A stretch of DNA of 64,000 nt, taken from contig REEQ01000053.1 of NCBI GenBank assembly GCA_007695005.1, positions 1 to 64,000 on the forward strand, written 5' to 3'. Both the position numbers and the translations under genes were made by a program. This document shows, piece after piece, positions 18,603 to 19,330 of the stretch. Source of the stretch: Wenzhouxiangellaceae bacterium (GTDB lineage Bacteria; Pseudomonadota; Gammaproteobacteria; Xanthomonadales; Wenzhouxiangellaceae). The notes under the pieces are model-generated. The model saw only the letters and a list, made by a program, of their open reading frames with translations, did not search any database and was not told where the DNA came from. Each line of letters starts with the position of its first letter. Positions within the stretch are counted from its first letter, which is position 1.

Positions 18603-18694
18603 GGAGAGGTGCCGGAGTGGTCGAACGGGCTCGCCTGGAAAGTGAGTGTACGGTTTATCCCGTACCGAGGGTTCGAATCCCTCCCTCTCCGCCA
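18603..18694 (+). tRNA. tRNA-Ser (anticodon GGA)
   Basis: Acceptor GGAGAGG (18603-18609) pairs with CCTCTCC (18684-18690), followed by discriminator G and an encoded CCA. The anticodon loop reads CTGGAAA between CTCGC and GTGAG, giving anticodon GGA for UCC/UCU codons. A long variable arm (GTACGG/CCGTAC) and T-arm GAGGGTTCGAATCCCTC are typical of class II serine tRNAs. Confidence 0.97.
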
Positions 18695-18868
18695 TACAGC
18701 AAGGCTGCCGGATACAATTGAATCTGGTAGAGCAAGAAAGCCGGAAAAGGAGGGGTTCGAACCCGACCAGATGGGTTCGACCCGAGCGCAGCGAGGTCGC
18801 TGTCGCGTAGCGACAGTCCGAAGGACAAGGCCGCGTCAGCGGACGCAGCAATCCCTCCCTCTCCGCCA
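18695..18868 (+). repeat. 174-bp tandem repeat, copy 1 (ends in tRNA-Ser 3' tail)
   Basis: First of three direct repeats, starting at the base after the tRNA-Ser(GGA) CCA. Its last 19 bases (AATCCCTCCCTCTCCGCCA) equal the tRNA's 3' end. Inside are the palindrome GGGTTCGAACCC, a T-arm-like run, and stems TGTCGC/GCGACA, GTCC/GGAC and CCGC/GCGG. Confidence 0.92.
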
Positions 18869-19042
18869 TACAGCAAGGCTGCCGGATACAATTGAATCTG
18901 GTAGAGCAAGAAAGCCGGAAAAGGAGGGGTTCGAACCCGACCAGATGGGTTCGACCCGAGCGCAGCGAGGTCGCTGTCGCGTAGCGACAGTCCGAAGGAC
19001 AAGGCCGCGTCAGCGGACGCAGCAATCCCTCCCTCTCCGCCA
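18869..19042 (+). repeat. 174-bp tandem repeat, copy 2
   Basis: Appears identical to copy 1 by eye, including the 19-base tRNA-Ser 3' tail. The 174-base period is a multiple of three, which keeps long artefactual reading frames open on both strands across the array. Confidence 0.92.
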
Positions 19043-19216
19043 TACAGCAAGGCTGCCGGATACAATTGAATCTGGTAGAGCAAGAAAGCCGGAAAAGGAG
19101 GGGTTCGAACCCGACCAGATGGGTTCGACCCGAGCGCAGCGAGGTCGCTGTCGCGTAGCGACAGTCCGAAGGACAAGGCCGCGTCAGCGGACGCAGCAAT
19201 CCCTCCCTCTGCGCCA
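19043..19216 (+). repeat. 174-bp tandem repeat, copy 3
   Basis: Same as the other copies except for one C-to-G change in the terminal tRNA-like tail (CTGCGCCA instead of CTCCGCCA). It is followed after 24 bases by tRNA-Ser(UGA). Confidence 0.92.
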
Positions 19217-19240
19217 ATTAAGATTACAATTCCAGTTACC

Positions 19241-19330
19241 GGAGGGGTGGCAGAGTGGTTGAATGCACCGGTCTTGAAAACCGGCAAGGGTGAAAGCCCT
19301 TCGTGGGTTCAAATCCCACCCCCTCCGCCA
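19241..19330 (+). tRNA. tRNA-Ser (anticodon UGA)
   Basis: Acceptor GGAGGGG pairs with CCCCTCC, then G and encoded CCA. The anticodon arm CCGGT-CTTGAAA-ACCGG gives anticodon UGA. The variable arm AAGGGTGAAAGCCCTT and T-arm GTGGGTTCAAATCCCAC complete a normal class II serine tRNA. A terminator follows directly. Confidence 0.97.

Follow-up and report, generated by a model that had tools for sequence, protein, structure and literature searches.

Tandem RtT-family repeats between two serine tRNA genes of a Wenzhouxiangellaceae bacterium, predicted to be released as RNAs by tRNA processing

The window, by which we mean the whole stretch of 64,000 nucleotides analysed here (contig REEQ01000053.1 of a draft Wenzhouxiangellaceae assembly of 3.31 Mb in 218 contigs), carries two serine tRNA genes with three nearly identical repeat units lodged between them. 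The features of this locus, all on the plus strand, are as follows:

18440..18602, plus strand: upstream element consisting of a copy of about 30 nt of the 5' end of tRNA-Ser(GGA) and a conserved, covarying hairpin (match of our model R1 at 18470-18543)
18603..18694, plus strand: tRNA-Ser(GGA), the source of the copied 3' end (ARAGORN; Rfam tRNA model, 56 bits)
18695..18868, plus strand: RtT unit 1, 174 nt (direct repeat D1; RtT model, 45.9 bits at 18734-18868, cut-off 45)
18742..18764, plus strand: unit 1 segment antisense to the acceptor/T strand of tRNA-Ser, 87% complementary to 18669-18691 (inverted repeats I3-I5) and predicted by folding to pair with the unit's tail
18773..18780, plus strand: GGGTTCGA, the T-arm 5' half as copied in unit 1 (from the sequence)
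18781..18849, plus strand: hairpin insert splitting the T-loop of unit 1 (from the sequence; related inserts lie in other tRNA contexts)
18850..18868, plus strand: 19-nt tail of unit 1, equal to the 3' end of tRNA-Ser(GGA) including CCA (repeat comparison)
18869..19042, plus strand: RtT unit 2, same sequence as unit 1 (repeat; RtT model, 45.9 bits at 18908-19042)
18916-18938 and 19090-19112, plus strand: antisense copies in units 2 and 3 (inverted repeats I3-I5)
19024-19042 and 19198-19216, plus strand: 19-nt tails of units 2 and 3, the latter with one change (repeat comparison)
19043..19216, plus strand: RtT unit 3, with a single difference in the tail (repeat; RtT model, 41.9 bits at 19082-19216, below the cut-off)
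19241..19330, plus strand: tRNA-Ser(TGA), closing the array (ARAGORN)
19340..19366, plus strand: terminator-like hairpin and T-run 3' of the second tRNA (part of inverted repeat I1, read by eye)

An earlier note on this DNA had described three 174-base repeats directly behind tRNA-Ser(GGA) and a second serine tRNA at their end, and both hold: the array begins at 18695 with a period of 174 nt, and tRNA-Ser(TGA) follows 24 nt after its last base. Repeat D1 comprises three direct copies of 193 nt in register, i.e., the 174-nt period plus the shared 19 nt, with spacings of 174/174 and identities of 100/100/99%, so that the copies are indeed as alike as had been stated. The hairpins and the T-arm-like palindrome GGGTTCGAACCC noticed in each unit are likewise present. 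Only the statement that all copies end in the tRNA's own 19 bases needs amending, since this tail, AATCCCTCCCTCTCCGCCA, is exact in units 1 and 2 while unit 3 differs from them by one base at position 169, within the tRNA-like tail (...CTCTGCGCCA). Open frames cross the array on either strand, with a maximum of 265 aa on the minus strand, but because 174 is divisible by three, the period alone can produce them, and the Tpr-like frames look incidental.

The array is a member of the RtT family (Rfam RF00391) and thus a new example of a known element. Two of its three units pass the cut-off of the covariance model and, as the earlier note had recognised from the parallel to the tyrT locus, parts and order agree with those of Escherichia coli tyrT-tyrV, where a single unit stands behind tyrT and three stand behind tyrV. 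The E. coli unit rttR (171 nt) is annotated from just past tRNA-Tyr to the CCA and ends in the 3' end of that tRNA. In both systems, units some 175 nt long are repeated in tandem 3' of a tRNA, another tRNA for that amino acid lies alongside, and the unit is built from an antisense T-arm segment, a hairpin insert and a CCA-ended tail copied from the tRNA's final 19 nt. They differ in the tRNA involved (serine in the window, tyrosine in E. coli), in the antisense loop (TTCGAACC instead of GATGAGAA) and in the 3' end of the insert (GCAGC instead of GAGTA), and two of the window's three units clear the cut-off only narrowly. Across 12 loci of relatives, the Rfam search listed only two RtT matches, both below the cut-off (41.0 and 39.5 bits), so that for most sister units the likeness to RtT lies in the layout and not in the score.

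Other relatives of the array are known from the literature. The available text of PMC4986893 reports Northern signals for RtTs of Actinobacillus pleuropneumoniae; among these, Arrc20 and Arrc21 are Rfam RtT members next to tRNA genes, as in the window, but are placed upstream of tRNA-Asn and tRNA-Lys, and they are likened here by description and not by sequence. For E. coli rtT, an effect on the stringent response has been proposed, as retold in the parts of PMC4986893 and PMC2965389 available to us. The latter also reports, in the portion consulted, that some RtT-like elements belong to BIMEs; BIME/REP elements resemble the present ones as short hairpin repeats, some of which are said to look like rtT, but differ in being dispersed, whereas the RtT-type inserts studied here adjoin tRNA sequence (as judged with exact patterns).

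The tail of an RtT unit generally follows the tRNA behind which it stands. Among 30 loci from the RtT search of the class, a same-strand tRNA was present in the examined stretch at 26, lay no more than 80 nt before the RtT domain at 25 of these, and at 19 loci shared at least 15 terminal nt with its unit. The further RtT hits behaved similarly, with an upstream tRNA in 29 of 32 and, in 24, a tail that agrees with that tRNA in at least 14 of 16 bases. Full tail matches mostly stop at 19 bases, which is where the T-loop lies, and the insert replaces the remaining T-loop. Misses include tails with a base altered near the CCA (L066, L072, L082), a shifted tail (L068) and degenerate ends (L054, L065, L073), and the simple rule is contradicted at L199, where two hits directly 3' of tRNA-Val have tails like tRNA-Lys of the same cluster. 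The tails of L066, L072 and L082, which lie near tRNA-Ser, end in CCACC and not CCGCC and differ from the tRNA in the base before the CCA.

Ahead of the split T-arm, the units carry an antisense stretch that can pair with their own tRNA's acceptor/T strand. Over 74 units in seven amino-acid groups, the duplexes of antisense stretch and own tail summed to 604.8, against 519.0 for the best of 2000 tail permutations, and the own tail beat the mean of other-amino-acid tails in 69 of the 74. Split by origin, the same test gave 221.0 versus 216.2 for the 28 units of the window's family and 383.8 versus 325.8 for the other 46. The set consists of 51 units plus 23 of the 32 further RtT hits; it leaves out L187, L194, the second unit of L188, the third of L195, two of the four units of L199, one of three at L200, one L185 unit and L186, and two L199 units are labelled Lys by their tail despite tRNA-Val being nearest upstream. 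The uncleaned list of 75 units gave 610.6 versus at most 533.2; our cleaned unit lists omit six entries, namely spacers containing a whole tRNA (L009, L020, L024) and units duplicated by assignment to two neighbouring tRNAs. In local alignments, 40 of the 51 units exceeded the 95th percentile of shuffles in complementarity to their cognate tRNA and 35 of 51 beat 95% of other-amino-acid tRNAs, while GGATGAGAACCC-type units in Wenzhouxiangella mostly fail this alignment. Family match, architecture and cognate-tRNA match of the array are established. Judged by sequence comparison, the own-tRNA tail with its matching antisense stretch, recurring behind many tRNAs in two classes, appears to be a wider design rule of the family. 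We found no statement of it in the literature surveyed, whose coverage was partial and did not include the original 1991 paper.

The predicted RNA fold of unit 1 (18738 to CCA) is strong (-59.4 kcal/mol, z -3.34, with 1 of 200 shuffles equal) and contains an acceptor-like helix of antisense stretch and tail, with the CCA unpaired in the centroid. Single-stranded DNA folds of either strand contain the acceptor-like helix as well, and here the opposite strand has the better z-score (-3.57, versus -2.16 for the sense strand). The accessible parts of PMC7657543 and PMC8250186 describe covariation support for part of the RtT structure as well as a tandem GA motif, and the latter also mentions one helix that is not supported by covariation. 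The Rfam pairing of the T-loop UUCG with a hairpin CGAA did not hold up in our units, failing in 19 of 48 that bear the motif, and a CC-GNA-GG hairpin fits better. The loop of this small hairpin is GAA in 29, GCA in 14 and GGA in five of 53 clean units, with no motif in the remaining five, and the counts with motif are unchanged on 55 uncleaned units.

Unit-like DNA was found in 25 of 61 genomes when the window's own genome, genus, family and order were searched, always within its own family and with at least 13 unit matches in one Wenzhouxiangella genome. Wider searches with the RtT model (E no greater than 0.001, own genome included) matched 51 of 274 genomes of the class sample, 19 of them over the cut-off, and 39 of 299 of the phylum sample, 25 of them over the cut-off; of the matching genomes in the phylum sample, 24 belong to a single family (f201) of another class. 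Several of the f201 loci examined carry exact tRNA-Ser or tRNA-Gln tails. Taken together, RtT units stand behind tRNAs for Ser, Tyr, Gln, Lys, Arg, Thr and Pro.

Copy number varies, and the figure of three units in the window comes from a single draft assembly. The comparison with relatives that the earlier note had proposed found a single unit 3' of tRNA-Ser(GGA) in G014 and G025 (L051/L013, L012) and none in G027 (L157), where the same pair of serine tRNAs lies 19 nt apart, making the proposed recent amplification in the window plausible. In the single-contig genomes G018 and G026, tandem units occur at other tRNAs. Among 5426 complete E. coli genomes, 4680 have an rttR match, at one to nine places (median two); the other 746 have none, so any function of rttR must be dispensable. 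E. coli ZH193 (L132) has one tRNA-Tyr at the locus with no annotated RtT and a desaturase gene directly after it. A change in the number of 175-bp rtT RNA repeats is tabulated in the available part of PMC2658671, a paper on Salmonella Paratyphi A and Typhi. From the variation in E. coli, strain ZH193 and the Salmonella case, gain and loss of units are usual in the RtT family.

Our scan detected no terminator between the two tRNAs of the window, and we found no sigma-70-like promoter in 18000-19500. The former result is not firm, because the same consensus scan lists only a minus-strand site at 19340-19366 and thereby misses the plus-strand hairpin read by eye behind the second tRNA. In the units compared, an intrinsic terminator separates the RtT domain from its tRNA in 16 of 28 cases within the window's family (17 of 29 with one spacer that contains a whole tRNA) and in six of 23 other units, four of these 23 coming from E. 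coli. Such intervening terminators would cut off most transcription into the RtT domain.

The inserts themselves have an unusual composition. G-U pairs are nearly absent, with none among 464 pairs in 27 genus inserts of 3' units, two of 888 when 26 further genus inserts are added (53 in total) and four of 400 in 22 inserts from outside the genus, whereas the same hairpin finder, which is biased to Watson-Crick stems, counted 12 among 474 terminator pairs, 50 among 1169 tRNA pairs and 14-15% in E. coli 16S/23S rRNA. GNA triloops make up 93 of 161 loops in genus inserts and 45 of 77 in others, compared to none of 68 in terminators and four of 127 in rRNA (uncleaned list: G-U 5 of 925 and 4 of 329; GNA 93 of 168 and 34 of 62). 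The exact insert pattern matched 18 times at 17 loci, always preceding tRNA 3' sequence (in some cases shortened) or another insert; in a collection of named genomes, its 17 stretches came from Wenzhouxiangella (15), Wenzhouxiangellaceae (one) and a Gammaproteobacteria bacterium (one). A second insert pattern had 43 sites spread over 17 of the 30 genus genomes (none for the control), and at the 30 loci examined the insert was followed by a T-stem-like stretch, sometimes degenerate, or by another insert. With these exact patterns, copies away from tRNA genes, as a REP- or MITE-like element would have, were not found. A loose pattern for the first hairpin of the insert failed to outperform its reversed control and was discarded.

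Beyond the RtT units, relatives and another contig of the window's own genome (L047, G000:C77) have upstream tRNA copies whose T-loop, D-loop or both hold an insert and which, where read to the end, have no CCA, and inserts stand in tandem at L043, L031 and L084. At L047, on the reverse strand upstream of tRNA-Ser(GCT), this is a full-length pseudo-tRNA-Ser with inserts in both D-loop and T-loop, a changed anticodon loop and no CCA. Comparing inserts on the uncleaned list, mean identity was 0.77 for the same genome and another tRNA (19 pairs, three values of 1.0 among them being one unit assigned to two neighbouring tRNAs) and, across genomes, 0.71 both for the same tRNA (104) and for another tRNA (372). 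Nearest neighbours were in the same genome in nine cases, at the same tRNA in 11 and neither in 12, and the within-genome comparison on this list gave no clear signal of movement or conversion.

We favour, with a probability of roughly 60%, the reading that this RtT array is part of a Wenzhouxiangella tRNA-Ser operon and yields a co-transcribed RNA that is released by tRNA processing. Each unit would then be a tRNA 3' half made into a separate structured RNA, in which the antisense copy may pair with the unit's own tRNA-derived tail to form a tRNA-like acceptor helix with free CCA while the hairpin insert would occupy the position of the T-loop. The units would be transcribed between the two tRNAs, as suggested by the terminator scan, and tRNA-processing enzymes might free CCA-ended RNAs of about 170 nt, as judged from E. 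coli and Actinobacillus. Such RNAs could conceivably act in trans or mimic substrates of proteins that handle tRNA 3' ends. The three copies would stem from recent tandem amplification, comparable to the copy-variable E. coli arrays. What opposes a purely RNA role are the units behind terminators, the near absence of G-U pairs and the predominance of C(GNA)G triloops.

These same observations would fit the view that a DNA hairpin and not an RNA is conserved, namely a small non-autonomous element that lodges in the loops of tRNA genes and of their copies and, as single-stranded DNA, has its effect or spreads, with RNA release in E. coli as a by-product; we keep this as a rival and not as our lead, and consider it rather unlikely. 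The presence of inserts in D-loops, in tandem and in CCA-less pseudo-tRNAs speaks for it, as do the BIME-associated elements mentioned above. Extra stability of DNA mini-hairpins is usually taken to extend to all C(GNA)G loops, and RNA versions of such a triloop are less stable than DNA. The d(GCGAAGC) mini-hairpin is described as extra-stable DNA in the available part of PMC10527192. However, loop stability is inseparable for DNA and RNA with ViennaRNA parameters, which give near-equal energies for almost all triloops, terminator hairpins are likewise poor in G-U, and the finder's preference for Watson-Crick stems bears on the G-U counts. The confinement of the exact insert pattern to sites beside tRNA sequence or another insert also argues against such an element, the better fold of the opposite strand of unit 1 disfavours a DNA hairpin of the sense strand, and the published covariation and tandem GA motif indicate RNA.

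Two further alternatives concern the origin of the array. If site-specific integration into the 3' end of the tRNA had left it as a footprint, with an attachment core from T-loop to CCA copied by repeated integration, the fixed T-loop boundary, the 19-nt identity block in most full matches and the exact placement of the array between two tRNAs that neighbour each other in G027 would fit; yet an integrase gene would not fit into so short a unit, none was noticed by eye among the open frames of 15500-22500, and simple integration does not predict an antisense segment that tracks the cognate tRNA, and we consider this origin improbable. That one unit was multiplied or collapsed during assembly might be suspected from the near-identical units in a 218-contig draft, but appears highly improbable to us given the tandem units at other tRNAs in single-contig G018 and G026 and the varying copy number among complete E. 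coli genomes.

Keeping the processed-RNA reading as our lead, we see the interest of this array in the family rule, the locus itself being ordinary. One design rule behind at least seven kinds of tRNA gives testable predictions and a large natural data set, and Wenzhouxiangella may suit the study of the unit. A bolder proposal, which we regard as unlikely, is that RtT is one case of a phylum-wide class of hairpins that track tRNAs by copying, and being antisense to, their own tRNA, with a related Wenzhouxiangella insert invading T- and D-loops of pseudo-tRNAs, and whose G-U-poor C(GNA)G hairpins might hint at action or spread as single-stranded DNA.

The upstream side of the array has a tRNA-derived element of its own. 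A second repeat (18396-18470 and 18559-18633) bears the 5' end of tRNA-Ser(GGA), and upstream copies of the own 5' end were found for 18 of 57 tRNAs with 300 nt of upstream sequence. In the window, the hairpin that follows differs from the RtT-type insert and has a fixed internal loop. Across nine sequences, 13 of its 21 pairs are altered on both sides, as many as in none of 500 shuffles, while the count of further pair types was equalled by 41 of 500. We found no Rfam match near any family cut-off for 18440-18602. Searches for the upstream hairpin matched 18 of the 30 genus genomes and 30 of 250 from the order. Its sites lie 3' of copied 5' ends of tRNA-Ser(GGA) and tRNA-Thr(TGT), close to other tRNAs, or in tandem arrays where no tRNA was found. 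Two of the latter (L166 and L175; G027:C1 2368810-2369003 and 2374101-2374492) have a period of 66 bp, with no tRNA in the surrounding 12-kb stretch and no transposase seen by eye in the list of open frames near them, and they look like a REP-type repeat.
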